From the IMG/VR virus record IMGVR_UViG_3300028400_000005, positions 1-64,000 of that record: a DNA stretch of 64,000 nt; one strand, given 5' to 3'. Each line of letters begins with the position of its first letter. The first letter of the stretch is position 1. The stretch comes from a virus. A model generated the notes under the pieces. It was not told the DNA's origin. It did not search any database and was given only the letters and a program-made list of their open reading frames with translations. This document shows, piece after piece, positions 13,201-45,776 of the stretch. A program made the position numbers and the translations under genes.

Positions 13201-16200
13201 ATGACCCGCTTGGCCCGGCCTTCGTGCTCGAGGAGCTGGGCTAGCGCGAGGCCGGCGTACGTCTTCCCGAGACCCACGTCGAGGGCCATGATCGAGTTGC
13301 CGGTGTCGAGGGCGTGCCGCACCGCCTCCGTCTGGAAGTCATGCAGCGGCGGACCCTTCCAGTCGGGGATGTCCAGCGCCTCGTTGCTGTACTTGGGCGG
13401 GATGTAGCTGTTGTAGGTGCGGTTGTAGCCCTCTTCGAGCTCTTCGCGGTAGTCGGAGCTGGCCGCCCACGCCTTGAACTGGTCGGCCCACTCCTGCTCC
13501 TGCTTGCGGGCCTCCTCGCGGTACTGCGCCTTGAGCGCGTCCAGCTCGGCGCGGGTCATGGTCCTCGTCTGCTCGGCCGTGAGGCGCCGCACCGGGGTGT
13601 CGAAGTTGAGGTACTTGACGAACTCCTTGACGTGGTCGGGGAGACTGTAGCCCTCGGCGTGCTCCACGATGAAGATGCCGGTGTCCGTACGCCGCACATT
13701 GTACTGGCCGCCCGGGTCCACGACCTCGCCGATGAAGTCGCGCACCACCTCCGGGCGCACGTAGTGGTCGCGGGCCGTGATCTCGACCTCCTCGAGGGGC
13801 TTGCGGGGCAGCTTCTCGCGGAACTTCTTGGCCTGGGCCCGCAGGATCTCGCGTTCGGTGTTCGAGAGGCCCGGGGCCTCGGCGGCCCGCTCCAGCGCCT
13901 CGGAGCGCTCGTACACGTCCCCGACGTAGAACTCGTCGTCGGGAATCCAGCGCCCCGACTCGTCCATGGCGTAGCCGTTCTCGGCCAGCCACTCCATGGC
14001 CTGCGTGGTGCCCCAGCCTTTCCCCGCCAGCACCGAGGCCAAGCGGGTGGGGGTGAGGCGCCGCTGCCGCGCAAGGTGCGCCGCGACGGCGTAGGGGTCG
14101 GTGTAGTCCACCCCCTCGCCGCGCTCGCCCGTGACCGGGTTGAGCAGGTGCTCGGCCACGTCGCCCTTGGGCGTGACGGCGCTGAGCAGGTGGGCGAGGC
14201 TGTGCCGGCGTTTGAGCTCGCCGGCCAAGTGTTGGTGGGGGTTGCCGTACTCCTCCAGGTAGCGCTTCAGGGACTCGACCACCGCCTTACGGCGCGCCTC
14301 GGCGTCGGCCGGGCTGCCGTTGTTGAGCACGTGCACGTACTCGCGCAGCTCGTCGGCGATGCTGACCGCGGCCGCGAGGCGCGGGTCCTCGCCCTGGATC
14401 GTGTGCCAGCGCCCGTTGCGGAAGACCAGGCGGCCGTCCTCGCTGACCGTCCCCTCCTCGACGCGGCCGCGCTCGAGGTTCGAGGCCGCGCTCGTGGCCC
14501 AGTCGCGGGCCGATGCGTACTCGTCCCCGTAGTGGCGCTCCAGCGCCGCCATGTCCGCCGGCTGTTCGTCGGTGGGGGCCTGGGCCAGGCGCTCGAGCAG
14601 CCCGGGCTCGAGCTCGCCCTCGATCTTCTTGTAGCCGTGGTACGTGGTCTCGCCGCTCCACGTCCCGAAGAGGTGGTCGTCGCGCAGGTGCAGCTTGCCG
14701 TCCAGGAAGTCGCGCGCGGCGTCCGTGAGCACGCCCGCCTTCTCCAGGGCCTCCTCGCCGTGGCGCTGCACCAGGCGCAGGAGGGTCATCCCCTCATCGT
14801 CCGGGCGCTTGCGCACCACCAGCACCACCGGGGGCACCCCCGAGTTGGACTCCTTGAAGACGCTGGAGGGGAGCTGGTAGGCCCCCAGGACCTCCGCCCG
14901 GGCCAAGAGGCGCCGGCGGAAGTCGCGGGTCGAGGGGTTCTCGACGGGTCCCGGGTTGATCAGGTGCACGCCCACGCCGCCGTCCTTGAGGCGGTCCAGG
15001 GAGGCGTCAATGAAATACTGCTCGGCCTTGGCGAGCCACGGCTTGCCCTTGCCGATCAGGCTGCCGCGGATGCCGTAGGGCGGGTTGGCGATCACCGCGT
15101 CGTAGGTGTGCTCCTGCCCTTCGCCCTGGTTGTACTCCTCGAAGGACAGGCCGGGGTAGACCTTGTGCCCCCGGGGCTCGTGCAGCAGCTTGCCGATCTT
15201 GCCCGATACCTCGGAGAGCTCGACGCCGGTCACGCGGGTGCCGTCGGGGGCGGTGTGCAGGAAGACGCCGTTGCCCATCGAGGGCTCGAGCGCGGTCTTG
15301 GGCTGGCCGGCCACGCGGTGCAGCAGGGCCCACATGGCGGCCGCCAGCGGCGCCGGGGTGTAGTGGGCGTTCAGGTCGCCCGTCAGGCCGCCCTCGCCGG
15401 TGTAGGCGGCCAGGACCTGGCGCTCCTCCTCGGTGGGCTCGCGCTTCTCGTCTTCCAGGCGCTCCAGCAGCTCCACGGCGCGCGCGTTGGCCTTGGTGCG
15501 CTGGGCAACCGTGGCCTTGGGCAGCAGCGCGAACCCGAACCGGGGAATACGCTTCAGGATCTCGCGCAGGGGGCGCGCGTAGTTGAGTCCGCGGCCTTCG
15601 GCTTCGGCCTGGGGCGGCTCCTCGGCGGCCGGCTCGGCCTCGGCCTCGGGCTCGGTCTCGGTCGGCTTGGCCTCGGGTTCGGGCTCCGGCTCGGCCTGGG
15701 GTTCGGCCGCTCCGGCTTCCGCCTCGGGCGCGGTCGGCTTGGCCTCGGGTTCGGGCTCCGAGGTGGCCTGGGGCTCGGGTTCGGTTTCCTGCCGGGGCGC
15801 GCTCGGGGCGCTTTCGGGTTCCTCGTCCACGCGGTGCCAGCGCCCGCCCTTGAGGCGGTACGTGTGGGCCCCGTCGGCGAAGACGACCGTCTTCTCGGCA
15901 CCCTCCCGCAGGTGCTGATCGGAAGGGTCGGCCGGCAGCTCCGCGGGGGCCGGTCCCGCGGTGTCGGGCACCGACGGCTCCACCTGCGGCGCGTTCTTGC
16001 CCTCCCAGCGCTCGCGCGGCACTTCATGGTAGAAGTGGTCGGTCAGGTTCTGGGCGAAGACCCGGGCGAACTGGGGGTCGCGTCCCCGCAGCTCGTAGCC
16101 GCGGATCGGGTCGTGCGTCGCCGTCTCCTCCAGCTCGAGGGCGCCGTCGGGAGCCACCTTGTACACCAGCTCGCCGTCGAGGTAGATGTCGCTCATTGGG

Positions 16201-25709: not shown

Positions 25710-26781
25710 CCCTGCCCTCCTTTCTGTCGCTGCTCTTTCGGCGGCTCCGCCGCGTACGCCACTCCACGTAGGCCCGCCACGCCTCCGGGGAACAGTAGCG
25801 GACGGGCGTGGCCTTCGGGTCGTCGGGCTGACGCACGGGCACCGTCTTGTGCCCGTAACGGCGCAGCCAGTTGTGGGTAGCGCCCACGCTCCACCCGTTC
25901 CGCTCGGCCTCCTCCGACACGTGCACCCAGCCCTCCGGTGGGCGCTCGAGGATGCCCGCCTCCCACCGCTCACGCCACTCCACGTAAGCCTGCCAAGACT
26001 CCGGCGGGCAGTAGCGGGAAGGAGCGACCCGCGCATCGGGCTGGCGCGCCAGCACCGTGGGGTGCCCATACCGGCGGAGCCAGTTCTGGACCGCGCCTGC
26101 GCTCCATCCCCTCCGCTCGGCCTCTTCCGACACGTGCACCCAGCCCTCCGGTGGGCGCTCGAGGATGTCCTTGTACTCGATGATCTGGGCGGCGTCCAGC
26201 GGTGCGTACCAGTTGACGCGCCGCCCGCCCGCGCGCGGATCGGGTGCCACGCGCGCCTGAATGCCCAGCGCCTTAGCGCGCGAGAGCACCGTCCGGGTGT
26301 GCAGCCCGGTGCGGCGCGCGATGTCGGCCAGCGACAGCCACCCCTCGGGGATGGAGCGCCGTCGCAGGTACGCCTGGAACAAATCGGGCTCGAAGTACAG
26401 CCGCCCCTTGTACTTCACCGCGCGCAGCTCCCCCCGGCGCGCCGCGGCGGTCAAGGTGTCCACGTGCTGCCCCGAAAGCTCCTGGGCCCGCTGGCTGGTG
26501 AGCCAGCGGGCGGGGCGCTTGGCCACGCGGGGCACGCCGTCGTTGTCCAGGTACTCCTTGGCCACTTCGGCGCGCACGTACGCGCACTTCCCGACTTTGC
26601 GGTAGTACGGGCATCGGGTGTAGTTGCGTTCCAGGCGCCACTCGCGGAACGCCGCGTGGCTGACCCCGGCTTCACGCAGCACCCATTGGACCGGTACGAA
26701 GATCCCGCTGCGGCGCCCGCACAGATCTTCCGGCGGAGCCGGGCACGGCTTCCGGCGACCATCGGACCGGCGGTCACGCAT
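25627..26781 (-). CDS. Multi-HTH DNA-binding protein with two near-identical 70-residue repeats
   Basis: Protein of about 384 residues from ATG 26781, which overlaps the previous stop by 8 nt. It has at least four helix-turn-helix-like segments: VLREAGVSHAAFREWRLE near 35, AQELSGQHVDTLTAAARRG near 100, LADIARRTGLHTRTVLSRAKALG near 150, and then two tandem repeats (about 206-275 and 276-345). Each repeat starts ILERPPEGWVHVSEEAE and ends in YVEWR, with a MerR-like turn (GWSAGAVQNWLRRYG). A single protein with this many units could recognise an extended DNA array. The C-terminus runs 83 nt into the next gene in another frame. Confidence 0.7.
   Translation of the reverse strand: MRDRRSDGRRKPCPAPPEDLCGRRSGIFVPVQWVLREAGVSHAAFREWRLERNYTRCPYYRKVGKCAYVRAEVAKEYLDNDGVPRVAKRPARWLTSQRAQELSGQHVDTLTAAARRGELRAVKYKGRLYFEPDLFQAYLRRRSIPEGWLSLADIARRTGLHTRTVLSRAKALGIQARVAPDPRAGGRRVNWYAPLDAAQIIEYKDILERPPEGWVHVSEEAERRGWSAGAVQNWLRRYGHPTVLARQPDARVAPSRYCPPESWQAYVEWRERWEAGILERPPEGWVHVSEEAERNGWSVGATHNWLRRYGHKTVPVRQPDDPKATPVRYCSPEAWRAYVEWRTRRSRRKSSDRKEGRDDQARTDQLHRRAPHAAAGRGGAAHAR
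25750..26170 (-). repeat. Tandem 210-bp repeat inside the multi-HTH gene
   Basis: The stretch beginning at 25908 (cacgtgcacccagccctcc core) recurs exactly 210 bp further on at 26118, giving two in-frame 70-codon repeats with only scattered differences. Confidence 0.75.
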
Positions 26782-34302: not shown

Positions 34303-34368
34303 AATCTAGCCCAGCGCCTAGGCATCTGTCAACCCCCGTTGACAAACCGCTGCATCTGTGCGTAGGAT
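34303..34368. promoter_or_regulatory. Divergent leaderless promoters with -35 boxes joined in a palindrome
   Basis: TGTCAAC-cccc-GTTGACA (34327-34344) contains both -35 boxes. Rightward: TTGACA 34339-34344, 18 nt, TAGGAT 34363-34368, 9 nt to ATG 34378. Leftward: TTGACA 34332-34327, 18 nt, TAGATT 34308-34303, 6 nt to GTG 34296. A dimer bound to the palindrome would block or activate both. Confidence 0.8.
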
Positions 34369-34377
34369 GGTCTCGCA

Positions 34378-34812
34378 ATGGAGACAAACGTCAAAGCGTC
34401 GGAAAATAGTCGCACTCCAACTGCGGCGATTCGTGTTACCGGGGTCAGACCCGGCCCCGACCTGCAGATGCGCGTCGGCCCACACGCCGGCTTCACCGCC
34501 ATCGCACGGCGTGACCTGGGGCGCTACTACGCGCTGCTCGACCACGTGCGCGACGGCATGCGTGGGCGCTTCACCGCCGATGAACTCGACGCGCTCGCGG
34601 ACCACCTCACCGCGACGCCCATGTTGGACCTCCCCGAAGCGCTGGCCGTCGTGCCCCACATTCTACTGGAGGCCGCCGAACGCGGCCTGCTCGACGAAGG
34701 CCTAGCCGAGCGGGTGCGGCAACTGACCCACGCGGAGCGCTGGGCGCTCGTGGACGCGGCCGAGGTGGTGTCCTCCGGCACGGCCTCCTGGGCCGATCTA
34801 GGGATGGTCTGA
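34378..34812 (+). CDS. Early protein, paralogue of the gene at 44221-44682
   Basis: Protein of 144 residues starting 9 nt from a -10, first gene of the rightward replication operon. The core IARRDLGRYYALLDHVRDGMRGRFTADELDALADHL, and the later LTHAERWALVDAAE, match the leftward gene at 44221-44682 almost block for block, showing a duplicated phage family. It is helical, without enzyme motifs. A small regulator or replication accessory is plausible, but function is unknown. Confidence 0.75.
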   Translation: METNVKASENSRTPTAAIRVTGVRPGPDLQMRVGPHAGFTAIARRDLGRYYALLDHVRDGMRGRFTADELDALADHLTATPMLDLPEALAVVPHILLEAAERGLLDEGLAERVRQLTHAERWALVDAAEVVSSGTASWADLGMV

Positions 34813-34814
34813 TC

Positions 34815-35822
34815 ATGGGCAGCCTCCACGACGGCCGAATCAAAAACTTCTGGTGGGGACCCAACGCCCTGGTAGACGACGGGCATCTCGAGCGCATGGG
34901 TCCCCACGCCGTTTCGGTGTACGTGGCGCTGCTGCGCTACTCGGACAACGACCGCCGCTCGTGGCCCAAGGTCGAAACCCTGGAGCGCCTGACCGGCATC
35001 TCTCGCGCCCAGGTCTACCGCGCGCTCGCGCGCCTCGAAGAGCTGGGCTACGTATCCCGCGAGCGTGACGGCCGGCGCAACGTCTACCATCTGCTGCAGC
35101 TCCCCACGGCATCCCCCGCCGACCCGCCCGTGAAACAGGTCTCAGGCAGAGACGTTTCCAGCGAAAAGGTCTCAGAGGGAGACCCTTCGGGGGAAAGGGT
35201 CTCAGACAGAGACAAAAAGGGTCTCAGACAGAGACGTGTAAGGTCTCAGACAGAGACGTATGGTGACACCGAGAGCGCGCGTCCTGGACGGGAAAAACTC
35301 CCCCAAAATGCAGGCCGAAGAAAACAAATAGAAAAAGACCTAGGGAAGAAAACAACACAAGAAGAAGAAGAAGAAGAAGCGGCCGCTCACGAAAATCTCA
35401 GAAAGGAACCGCCCCCCTACGCCTCGGTGTTCGCCACCCCGGCCGCGATGAAGGACGCGGTGTTGCATGCGGCGCTGCGCGGTGCCCCCGAGCGCCGCAT
35501 CCGTATGCTGGCGGACCTCGTCGAGGCTGGGGTGTGGGAAAAGTTGCGCGCGCTCGCGCGCGAAAACCGCCGCGGCGCGCGCGCGTGGCACGACTGGCTC
35601 GATCAGCTGTCGCGGCAGCTCGAGGGCCGGCCGGACGGCCTCGAGCGGCTGCGCCAGGCTCTCGAGGCGCTTACCCCGGACATCGAACGCCCCTTTGCGT
35701 GGGTGACGCGGTTCCTGAGCACCGAGGCCCCGACGCCGGCGCCTAAGCGGGCGCCGGCGCGGAACGCAGGCGTAGGCGACGGCGTGGAAGTGGACATGCG
35801 CGGTGTGTACATGGAGGACTGA
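34815..35822 (+). CDS. Replication initiator (lambda O-like) with internal origin
   Basis: Protein of 335 residues. The N-terminal winged-helix domain (about 25-95) reads HLERMGPHAVSVYVALLRYSDNDRRSWPKVETLERLTGISRAQVYRALARLEELGYV. A variable, polar linker (about 108-195) is encoded by the iteron array and an A-rich tract. The C-terminal domain (about 200-335) is helical and probably contacts the helicase loader encoded next. DNA-binding domain first, origin in the gene middle, and the loader gene immediately after (1 nt gap) reproduce the lambda O/P arrangement. Its job would be to bind the iterons, open the A-rich segment and recruit helicase. Confidence 0.8.
   Translation: MGSLHDGRIKNFWWGPNALVDDGHLERMGPHAVSVYVALLRYSDNDRRSWPKVETLERLTGISRAQVYRALARLEELGYVSRERDGRRNVYHLLQLPTASPADPPVKQVSGRDVSSEKVSEGDPSGERVSDRDKKGLRQRRVRSQTETYGDTESARPGREKLPQNAGRRKQIEKDLGKKTTQEEEEEEAAAHENLRKEPPPYASVFATPAAMKDAVLHAALRGAPERRIRMLADLVEAGVWEKLRALARENRRGARAWHDWLDQLSRQLEGRPDGLERLRQALEALTPDIERPFAWVTRFLSTEAPTPAPKRAPARNAGVGDGVEVDMRGVYMED
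35138..35257 (+). repeat. Five origin iterons inside the initiator gene
   Basis: Copies of GGTCTCAGACAGAGAC or close variants start at 35138, 35168, 35198, 35220 and 35242 (spacing 30, 30, 22, 22 bp, i.e. close to whole helical turns). Each copy is itself an inverted repeat (GTCTC..GAGAC), as expected for dimeric winged-helix binding. Confidence 0.88.
35285..35392 (+). other. A-rich tract, putative DNA-unwinding element of the phage origin
   Basis: It runs directly downstream of the iterons, inside a high-GC gene, with long purine/A runs (aaaaactcccccaaaa, gaagaaaacaaatagaaaaa, gaagaagaagaagaagaag). Such strand asymmetry is typical of lambda-type origins. Confidence 0.75.
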
Positions 35823-35823
35823 C

Positions 35824-36615
35824 ATGGGCGACGCCCCGGAGAAGGATCAGGAGAACCCCTTTCTGGCGCTGGTCGAGGAAATCCGCTCGAAGAACCCGCC
35901 GGCGGCGCGGGTCGAGTCCGACCACGAGTGCTTCGACGGGATGGTCGAGGACGACAAGGGCCGCTGGGTGCCGTGCCCGGTGTGCAAGGCGCGGCGCGAC
36001 GAAGCCATGCTGCGCATGCGCCTCCAGTCGTCGGGGATCGCGGAGCGCTACCTCGACGTGGGCTGGGACGACCTCGAGATGCTGCCGCCCTTCCCGCTGG
36101 TGCGAAGCGTGGCCGAGCGCATCGGCGACCTGATCCACGCCGGCGAGTCCGCGGTGTTTACGGGGCCGGTGGGGACGGGCAAGACCCAGGCCGGGCTGCT
36201 CCTGGTGCGGGCTGCGGTGCGCGCCGGGTTCGAGGCGCGGGTCGTCAACGTCGGCTGGCTGGGGGTTGAGGTGCGCTCCACCTGGAACGGCGGTGAGGGC
36301 ATCACGGAAAACGAGGCCGTGCGCCTCATGGCTCAGCCCGACCTGCTGCTGCTCGACGACGTGGGGGCCGGCGAAACCCGCAACGCCGAGCTCGAGCGCC
36401 GCCTCCTCTACCTCGCCCTCGAGGCGCGGAACCAGAACCGGCGCCCGACGATCATCACGACCAACCTCGGGGTTGGGTCAAAATCGGCCTCGCGCGCCAC
36501 ATTGGAGCAGTACCTTGGAGGGCGGATATGGGACCGCCTCAAGCCGCTCCGGGTGGTGGCCTTCAAGCACGGGAAAAACTTCAGGGAGCGGGAGATTAGC
36601 GTATGGGCAAACTGA
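35824..36615 (+). CDS. DnaC/IstB-like AAA+ helicase loader
   Basis: Protein of 263 residues from ATG 35824. It has an N-terminal Cys cluster (C36, C51, C54) that may bind zinc. The AAA+ core shows Walker A GPVGTGKT (114-121), Walker B LLLLDD (174-179), the sensor-1 strand PTIITTN (208-214), and an arginine region near ERRLLYLALEARNQNRR. It belongs to the DnaC/DnaI group that loads the replicative helicase. As no DnaB-like helicase was found in the window, the host helicase is probably used. The end overlaps the TPR gene by 13 nt. Confidence 0.88.
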   Translation: MGDAPEKDQENPFLALVEEIRSKNPPAARVESDHECFDGMVEDDKGRWVPCPVCKARRDEAMLRMRLQSSGIAERYLDVGWDDLEMLPPFPLVRSVAERIGDLIHAGESAVFTGPVGTGKTQAGLLLVRAAVRAGFEARVVNVGWLGVEVRSTWNGGEGITENEAVRLMAQPDLLLLDDVGAGETRNAELERRLLYLALEARNQNRRPTIITTNLGVGSKSASRATLEQYLGGRIWDRLKPLRVVAFKHGKNFREREISVWAN

Positions 36616-38212: not shown

Positions 38213-38404
38213 ATGGCATTGACTATGAAAACACCCACTCAGCAGGAGGCCCGAAACCGGCTCATCAAGGCCACGGAGGGCGACCTGGACAGCGAAATCG
38301 CCGCGTTTTCGATCATCGCCAAAGCCAACGAAATCGGCCAGCTGCTCCAGCAGCTGGCCCCCGAGGCGCGCGAGACCGCGCGCGAGCTTCTAAGAGCCTT
38401 GTAG
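38213..38404 (+). CDS. Small helical protein of unknown function
   Basis: Protein of 63 residues, helical (QEARNRLIKATEGDLDSEIAAFSIIAKANEIGQLLQQL). It lies downstream of the candidate peptide pair with its own leaderless start. Its 3' end overlaps the convergent RHH gene by 15 nt, so expression of one may interfere with the other. Confidence 0.65.
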   Translation: MALTMKTPTQQEARNRLIKATEGDLDSEIAAFSIIAKANEIGQLLQQLAPEARETARELLRAL

Positions 38405-38815
38405 CGTCTTCTGGCCCTTCGGGGCCGCACGCAAGGCCCGATCCAGGGCCGTGAGGATCACGCTGTTCTGCGTGATCTTTTCTTTGCGGGACTGGTTCAG
38501 CCGCTCCACCGTGTCGTGGAGGACCCGGACCAGCTCCACGGGCAGCCGTTGGCTGCGCACCGGGTCGTACGGACGCGGGTTACGCCAGTACCGGGGCAGC
38601 GCGTCCGGGCGGCGCCGCGCCTCCCGCAGGAAGGCGGCGAGCGCGCGCTCAACGTAGCCCTGGATCGTGAGCCCTTCGGCCATGGCCGCGATCTTCAGCT
38701 CCTGGTACATGTCGTCCGGCATTTTGTAGGACACGATCCGCCGCAACTGCTGTTTCGGGCCGACCGGCTTCGCGCTGTGCTCCATCAGCCCCTCGTACTG
38801 GTGTTTGTTGGGCAT
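38390..38815 (-). CDS. Double ribbon-helix-helix protein, ParA partner
   Basis: Protein of 141 residues with two RHH-like units: RRIVSYKMPDDMYQELKIAAMAEGLTIQGYVERALAAFL (about 25-63) and SQRLPVELVRVLHDTVERLNQSRKEKITQNSVILTALDRAL (about 88-130). It is the third gene of the repressor-ParA operon, 11 nt after ParA, with AGGAGGAGCC as ribosome site. RHH proteins next to ParA act as centromere-binding factors (ParG/Omega type), so it probably completes a partition module. It could also be a plain transcription regulator. Confidence 0.75.
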   Translation of the reverse strand: MPNKHQYEGLMEHSAKPVGPKQQLRRIVSYKMPDDMYQELKIAAMAEGLTIQGYVERALAAFLREARRRPDALPRYWRNPRPYDPVRSQRLPVELVRVLHDTVERLNQSRKEKITQNSVILTALDRALRAAPKGQKTLQGS

Positions 38816-38826
38816 GGCTCCTCCTG

Positions 38827-39624
38827 TTAGCGGCTGGGCACCAGCTCGGCCCGTTCCGCGACCCAGTCCCCCAGCGCCATGTAGTCAATCGCGCCCGGGG
38901 ACCGGGGCTTGTACTCGAAGATGGTCAGCCCGCGCTCCGGCGCTTCGGCGAGGTGGACGTTGCGCCGGATGTGACCGGCGTAGGTGGGCCCGTAGGCCTC
39001 CTGCAGGTCGGGCACGAGGTTGCGGGACAGACGTTCGCGTCGGTCGATCATCGTGGCCAGCACGCCCATCAGCGCCGGCGCGTAACCGAGGCGGTCGCGC
39101 ATGGCGCGCAGGCGCGTTCGCAGCCCCTCCACCCCGGCCCGGGTGGCCGCACCGGGGGCCACGGGCACGATGACGGCGTCGGCCGCGTAGAGGGCGAGCA
39201 GGCTGGCCAGGTTGACGGTGGGGCCCACGTCTATGATCACGAGCTGGTAGCGGTCGCTGACCTCCTTAAGCCGCTCGGCCAGGATCATGTGCCGGTCTTC
39301 GCGGCCGGCGATCTCGAGCTCGGCTTGGGCGATGCGGGGGTTGTTGGGGATGAGGTCGAGCCCGTCGCGCACGTTCAGGGTGATGAGCTCGTCGGCGGGG
39401 CGGTAGGTCGGGTCGAGCGGGTCCGAAAACACCAGCATCTCGTACATCCCCGCGCGGTCCTCCCCCTCCGTGGTGAACCCCAGGAACATGCCCGCCTGCC
39501 CCTGCGAGTCCATGTCCACGAGCAGCACCTTGCCTACGCGGTCGGCCAGGTAGGCCGCAAGGTTGACCGCGGTGGTGGTCTTCCCCACCCCGCCCTTTTC
39601 AGCAGCGATAGCCAGGACCATCAT
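38827..39624 (-). CDS. parA: ParA-type partition ATPase
   Basis: Protein of 265 residues. The deviant Walker A motif KGGVGKTT is at 9-16, with the signature Lys; A' (VLLVDMDSQGQ) is near 33 and Walker B (LVIIDVGPT) near 128. It is in the Soj/ParA family that segregates low-copy plasmids and phage-plasmids. Translation is coupled to the upstream repressor (overlap 39621-39624), and the RHH gene follows. No parS array was identified with certainty. Presence with an integrase suggests that the prophage may also exist as an extrachromosomal element. Confidence 0.92.
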   Translation of the reverse strand: MMVLAIAAEKGGVGKTTTAVNLAAYLADRVGKVLLVDMDSQGQAGMFLGFTTEGEDRAGMYEMLVFSDPLDPTYRPADELITLNVRDGLDLIPNNPRIAQAELEIAGREDRHMILAERLKEVSDRYQLVIIDVGPTVNLASLLALYAADAVIVPVAPGAATRAGVEGLRTRLRAMRDRLGYAPALMGVLATMIDRRERLSRNLVPDLQEAYGPTYAGHIRRNVHLAEAPERGLTIFEYKPRSPGAIDYMALGDWVAERAELVPSR

Positions 39625-45507: not shown

Positions 45508-45593
45508 ATGGGCCCGCCACCGGGACGGCTTTGTGCGCGTGTGGGGCGCAGCTTCCATTGTTCACCGGCCTTTACTAAAATCTATATCGGTAC

Positions 45594-45776
45594 TCAAAAA
45601 TGTATCAAAAGCCAAAATACAAGAAGAGCAATCGTAAGGAAAATCAGACCCGTAAGCCCTGTCCAGACCGCCACCCTGGCCTCTTCGAGCGCGTGTCGCT
45701 CCTGCTGCAGATAGCGCGCCTGGTGGTGGCCCTCCTGCAACTCCTGCTGCGCTGATGGTCTGGTGTTACAGACCAC
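45594..45776 (-). CDS. Candidate tail-anchored membrane mini-protein (overlapping alternative on the other strand)
   Basis: GTG-started frame of 60 residues. It is a polar, Gln-rich helical N-terminus (QQELQEGHHQARYLQQERHALEEA) followed by one textbook C-terminal membrane helix (VWTGLTGLIFLTIALLVFW). The opposite strand holds an overlapping 51-residue ORF (45600-45755), basic at the N-terminus (MYQKPKYKKSNRKENQTRK) and hydrophobic at the C-terminus (LLLQIARLVVALLQLLLR). Neither has a good ribosome site. The region is much richer in A/T than its surroundings. At most one is likely real. Confidence 0.4.
   Translation of the reverse strand: MVCNTRPSAQQELQEGHHQARYLQQERHALEEARVAVWTGLTGLIFLTIALLVFWLLIHF

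Follow-up and report, generated by a model that had tools for sequence, protein, structure and literature searches.

A probable replication origin within the initiator gene of a Thermus-type tailed phage

Tandem palindromes in the middle of a protein-coding gene raise the question of whether they are kept for the protein or for the DNA. We addressed this question for a 64,000-nucleotide stretch of viral DNA (the window; positions 1 to 64,000 of IMG/VR virus record IMGVR_UViG_3300028400_000005), in which a preliminary description had placed a lambda-O-like origin inside a winged-helix replication gene. Our analysis indicates that this locus is very probably a phage replication origin embedded in its own initiator gene, in a tailed phage of the Thermus-phage type with a tail sheath. 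The contig is a fragment of a metagenome bin, 79 kb long and not circularised, so a second origin elsewhere is possible. The features of the locus are collected in Table 1, in which L002 denotes IMG/VR contig IMGVR_UViG_3300026531_000001, an 80.7-kb syntenic relative.

Table 1. Features of the replication operon, in window coordinates.
Feature	Position	Strand	Basis or remark
Sigma-70-like promoter TTGACA-18-TAGATT, divergent from the replication operon	34303..34332	-	Promoter scan
Sigma-70-like promoter TTGACA-18-TAGGAT of the replication operon	34339..34368	+	Promoter scan; L002 has TTGACA in the corresponding position
Lone palindrome GGTCTCGCAATGGAGAC (GTCTC-N6-GAGAC) spanning the first ATG	34369..34385	.	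L002 4499-4515 has GGTCTCGAAATGGAGAC
First gene of the replication operon, 144 aa	34378..34812	+	55% identical homologue in L002
Replication initiator gene, O-like, 335 aa	34815..35822	+	Pfam HTH_36, PHROG
Winged helix-turn-helix domain, residues 16-95, recognition helix GISRAQVYRAL	34860..35099	+	Pfam HTH_36, AlphaFold2
Iteron 1, GGTCTCAGGCAGAGAC	35138..35153	+	1 base off GGTCTCAGACAGAGAC
Iteron 2, GGTCTCAGAGGGAGAC	35168..35183	+	2 bases off GGTCTCAGACAGAGAC
Iteron 3, GGTCTCAGACAGAGAC	35198..35213	+	Exact copy
Iteron 4, GGTCTCAGACAGAGAC	35220..35235	+	Exact copy, second reading frame
Iteron 5, GGTCTCAGACAGAGAC	35242..35257	+	Exact copy, third reading frame
A-rich strand-biased tract, presumed unwinding element	35288..35384	+	Composition, codon choice, kept in L002
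Helical C-terminal domain, residues 203-302, presumed loader/helicase contact	35421..35720	+	AlphaFold2; role inferred
DnaC/IstB-like AAA+ helicase loader, 263 aa from ATG 35824	35824..36615	+	PHROG, Pfam

Each iteron is a palindrome, GTCTC-N5-GAGAC, with a G in front (GGTCTC-N5-GAGAC), and is thus an inverted repeat suited to a dimer, as is the lambda iteron CCCTC-N5-GAGGG. All five copies lie at the positions claimed for them, with start-to-start spacings of 30, 30, 22 and 22 bp (array 35138-35257), and five matches at up to three mismatches did not arise in any of 100 dinucleotide shuffles of the window. Beyond the array, the 79,030-bp contig holds no further GTCTC-N5-GAGAC. Inside the initiator gene the word is read in all three frames, as VSDRD, LRQR and SQTE, and is therefore not a protein repeat.

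The protein encoded around the array is recognisable as a replication initiator. Its winged helix matches Pfam HTH_36 (2e-13) and also phrog_270/391, families of replication initiation, which confirms that the iterons lie mid-gene in a winged-helix replication gene. The product of the gene directly downstream, which had been described as a DnaC-like loader, matches phrog_50 (DnaC-like, 8e-34) and Pfam IstB_IS21 (1.5e-10), in agreement with that description. The AlphaFold2 model of the initiator has an overall pLDDT of 67, with both domains confident (local pLDDT mostly 75-87 in the C-terminal domain) and residues 99-196 mostly disordered; the disordered residues coincide with the codons of the iterons and the tract. 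If the model is right, the origin DNA doubles as the code for a flexible linker that joins the two domains of the initiator. A PDB fold search returned generic winged helices only. Used as the sole query against viral contigs, the winged helix of the window found no relatives, and other winged helices used in this way matched themselves alone or one poor fragment.

The A-rich, strand-biased tract was likewise found at its claimed place, with 51 A and 4 T in 97 nt; no other 90-bp stretch of the window is as rich in A, and only one is less stable. Codons ending in A make up 23 of 40 in the tract, compared with 111 of 2320 in seven further genes from the window (p=1e-19). For Glu, Lys and Gln codons, the corresponding counts are 15 of 17 and 51 of 310 (p=9e-10), so the tract is more than just Lys/Glu-rich coding. 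GC skew, a check that had been proposed earlier, takes a weak local turn at 35 kb that is confounded by gene direction. The 90 bp with the highest AT content and lowest stability in the window lie at 45551-45660, where such iterons are absent, and this counts against reading the iteron locus as the origin.

L002 has the same replication operon, with an initiator that is 61% identical and a loader that is 70-72% identical, and in its initiator gene GGTCTCAGAGAGAGAC iterons and the same A-tract are found at the matching place. It differs from the window in having three perfect iterons plus degenerate ones; in a degenerate copy at L002 5271-5285 (GTATC-AGGGG-GATAC), both half-sites have changed in a symmetrical way, which fits recognition by a dimer. 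Where the two initiators have identical residues, the codons are also identical at 43 of 49 positions (88%) in the iterons and tract and at 59 of 131 (45%) elsewhere in the gene (p=1e-7), and the two parts taken alone give p=6e-4 (iterons) and p=1e-5 (tract). This synonymous conservation, together with the use of three reading frames and the choice of A-ending codons, shows that the iterons and tract coding for the linker are under selection at the level of DNA, and bears out the earlier proposal that the code for the linker is forced by the iterons. With the DNA itself under selection, the locus is almost certainly an origin that works like lambda ori or SPP1 oriL.

The same word accompanies initiator genes in many other viruses. 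We scanned 2.9 million viral contigs of IMG/VR for two tandem copies of GGTCTC-N5-GAGAC, with no protein used in the search. This yielded 57 viral stretches: 51 lie in an ORF for an HTH_36-like winged-helix initiator (by a profile built from those same sequences), five lie in ORFs truncated at the edge of the sequence examined, and one (L031) is unrelated. Scanning 58 ORFs with independent libraries gave matches to Pfam HTH_36 in 49 and to replication-initiation PHROGs in 50. Many of the 57 stretches are near-copies, and at 80% winged-helix identity they represent 17 distinct types, with the window and L002 counted. A control word with the same shape but scrambled letters found five stretches, none of which lay in a winged-helix initiator gene.

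In a set of 20 representative genes, the start of the array falls mostly at codon 84-135 and once at codon 221; the spacings form clusters at 21-23, 30-34 and 44-46 bp, a spacing of 17 is also seen, and the reading frames vary. An A-enriched stretch of the coding strand follows the array in 19 of these 20 genes. The gene after the initiator varies as well, coding for a DnaC-like loader (L008, L010), a DnaB helicase (L090), a primase (L029) or a product with no assignment. The specificity of the word for initiators holds in viral contigs and not in genomes at large, since the matches of a looser word (no leading G) in bacterial genomes are mostly unrelated palindromes, with 6 of 116 among the matches listed falling in winged-helix ORFs (E<1e-3). 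Five bacterial genome contigs (L061, L066, L067, L157 and L174) have GTCTC-N5-GAGAC arrays with a regular spacing of 23-37 bp outside winged-helix initiator ORFs.

A related palindrome stands at the start of the operon. Two promoter-like sites lie back to back there (34303-34368), against 0.1 expected from shuffles in the 3.2 kb scanned, and because the -10 box sits 9 nt from ATG 34378, the mRNA is probably leaderless. The first gene of the operon has no Pfam or PHROG match. The palindrome over its start, GGTCTCG(C/A)AATGGAGAC, is conserved between the window and L002, abuts the -10 box and has an N6 spacer in place of the N5 of the iterons; it may be an operator for the initiator or for another regulator. 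This palindrome, together with the resemblance of HTH_36 to transcriptional regulators, would fit the idea that the iterons themselves are an operator or serve copy-number control, so that the protein regulates its own gene or titrates itself and replication begins elsewhere. We regard this as improbable, because the array is 320 bp into the gene and distant from the promoter, the adjoining A-tract is likewise under DNA-level selection, and the layout is repeated in many unrelated phage initiators.

The phage is likely a Thermus-type myovirus, because its portal shares 73% identity with the portal of the Thermus myophage Lalka27b and the contig codes for a tail sheath; the same portal match supports the earlier label of a thermophile-type phage. 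Lalka phages have been reported with an O-like protein (PMC11437467). We considered that protein as a direct counterpart of the window's initiator and dropped it, as it has neither a match to the winged-helix profile nor such iterons. In Lalka27b, the gene at 14446-15381 on the minus strand, annotated as replication initiation O-like, may have been given too late a start or too loose a label. Elsewhere in the window, a 213-bp unit is present in nearly two tandem copies that are 80% alike (25756-26167).

The minus strand at 38390-39624 encodes a ParA-like protein side by side with a small, weakly ribbon-helix-helix-like (RHH) protein, and the ParA is 91% identical in L002. The pair may be a partition cassette, a hint that the phage could form a plasmid-like prophage. 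As it is encoded 3-4 kb from the array and kept in L002, the iterons might be its centromere (parS); this is very improbable, given that the iteron word goes with the initiator gene in many phages and that, among the loci compared, which are of limited length, L002 alone has a relative of the ParA. It is hardly credible that the repeats and tract are a mere protein-level repeat coding for a charged, repetitive linker: iterons 1-3 share a frame and encode a loosely repeated VSxxD, and the tract codes for a Lys/Glu-rich linker, but iterons 4 and 5 are in the two other frames, synonymous sites are kept in comparison with L002, and A-ending codons are used where the phage elsewhere prefers G-ending ones.

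We therefore return to an origin within the initiator gene, for which a course of events can be proposed. The winged-helix N-terminus would bind each GTCTC-N5-GAGAC iteron, presumably as a dimer, and the five iterons, about two or three helical turns apart, would give rise to a nucleoprotein complex that strains the adjoining A-rich tract to the point of opening. The C-terminal domain of the initiator would recruit the DnaC-like loader from the neighbouring gene, and the loader would put the host (or phage) DnaB helicase onto the opened strand. Replication would then be initiated at this site.

How the iteron word relates to the protein that reads it is a wider question. We read 12 initiators of named phages found by protein similarity, plus that of Shigella phage SfIV, and in most of them repeats with different words directly follow the winged helix. 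The iterons are GTGAC-N5-GTCAC in the Vibrio phages D279 and 1.205.O and GTCA-N5-TGAC in SfIV, whereas Vibrio H20 and others have CC(C/G)AAAACGG-like repeats and Pseudomonas D14E and Itty13 have CCCCGCAG. A wider survey of the window's phylum yielded no further GTCTC member; two phylum-level relatives have GGGTC-N5-GACCC and GGTCG-N5-CGACC, where the N5 reading is our own. Judging from these words and lambda's CCCTC-N5-GAGGG, the 5-N5-5 geometry recurs with differing half-sites, though not everywhere. A recognition-helix motif, [SAG][RK][APCSQ]x[VIL]xR, is present in 21 of 22 GTCTC-class proteins and in 0 of 14 others, although this motif was picked after seeing the data; the window's SRAQVYR fits it. 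The recognition helix thus appears to track the iteron word, which we treat as a lead, not a result. The initiator tree is poorly resolved, with too few independent contrasts, and a single origin of the GTCTC class was not rejected (AU p=0.14).

These observations suggest, as a tentative proposal to which we give slightly less than an even chance, that GTCTC-N5-GAGAC marks an iteron class of its own. In such a class, phages that differ widely in loader and C-terminal domain would have one winged-helix/iteron unit in common, inherited or transferred as a cassette, and an S-R-A-x-V-x-R helix would read GTCTC; other HTH_36 initiators would keep the N5 dimer geometry with other half-sites, so that the recognition helix could predict origin specificity. 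Searches of openly licensed papers turned up no account of this iteron class, and it is the interesting part beyond one more in-gene origin. The locus brings high-GC Thermus-type phages into the lambda/SPP1 design, in which the initiator gene conceals the origin, and the iteron word offers a highly specific finder of such origins in unannotated viral contigs. If the link between helix and word is true, sequence could be enough to assign many uncultured phages their origins and incompatibility groups, and one could directly test a minimal replicon for use in thermophile genetics.

Among known systems, the closest by sequence are the HTH_36 phage initiators (phrog_270/391), including those of SfIV and D279, which share with the window a winged helix followed by in-gene iterons (with the N5 spacer in SfIV and D279) and differ in iteron words, recognition helices and downstream genes. 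In Bacillus phage SPP1, oriL comprises repeats and an AT-rich unwinding element within gene 38, and the initiator, the gp39 loader and a DnaB-type helicase cooperate (PMC6316719). The likeness to SPP1 is at the level of layout, with repeats and an AT-rich unwinding element in the initiator gene and the loader next; unlike what we describe here, SPP1 has a second origin, oriR. In phage lambda, ori consists of tandem palindromic iterons in the middle of gene O, with the loader gene next (PMC7466680). Lambda ori, and that of Stx phages, has in common with the window mid-gene palindromic iterons of 5-N5-5 form (CCCTC-N5-GAGGG in lambda), an A-rich tract of the coding strand right after them and an adjacent loader gene. 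The differences lie in the half-site, in the number and spacing of iterons (four at 20/24/23 in lambda, five at mixed 30/22 in the window), in the loader (lambda P versus a DnaC/IstB-like protein) and in the high GC content of the window's phage. Homology to lambda O was not detectable, the winged-helix profile scoring -3.7 bits on lambda O, and no solved structure matched the lambda O N-terminus; by sequence, the O-likeness of the window's initiator lies only in PHROG families labelled O-like. The earlier term "lambda-O-like" is therefore apt for mechanism and architecture, as the order of winged helix, iterons, strand-biased A-tract, C-terminal domain and loader is that of a lambda-type origin, and does not extend to direct homology, as the winged-helix profile detects none to lambda O and the loader is not a P homologue. 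In function the origin would be lambda-like, and by sequence the initiator groups with the HTH_36 phage initiators and not with lambda O. The best-supported mechanism for the locus would be that of lambda O and SPP1 gp38 (PMC7466680, PMC6316719), and the locus is a new example of a known design, the origin within the initiator gene.
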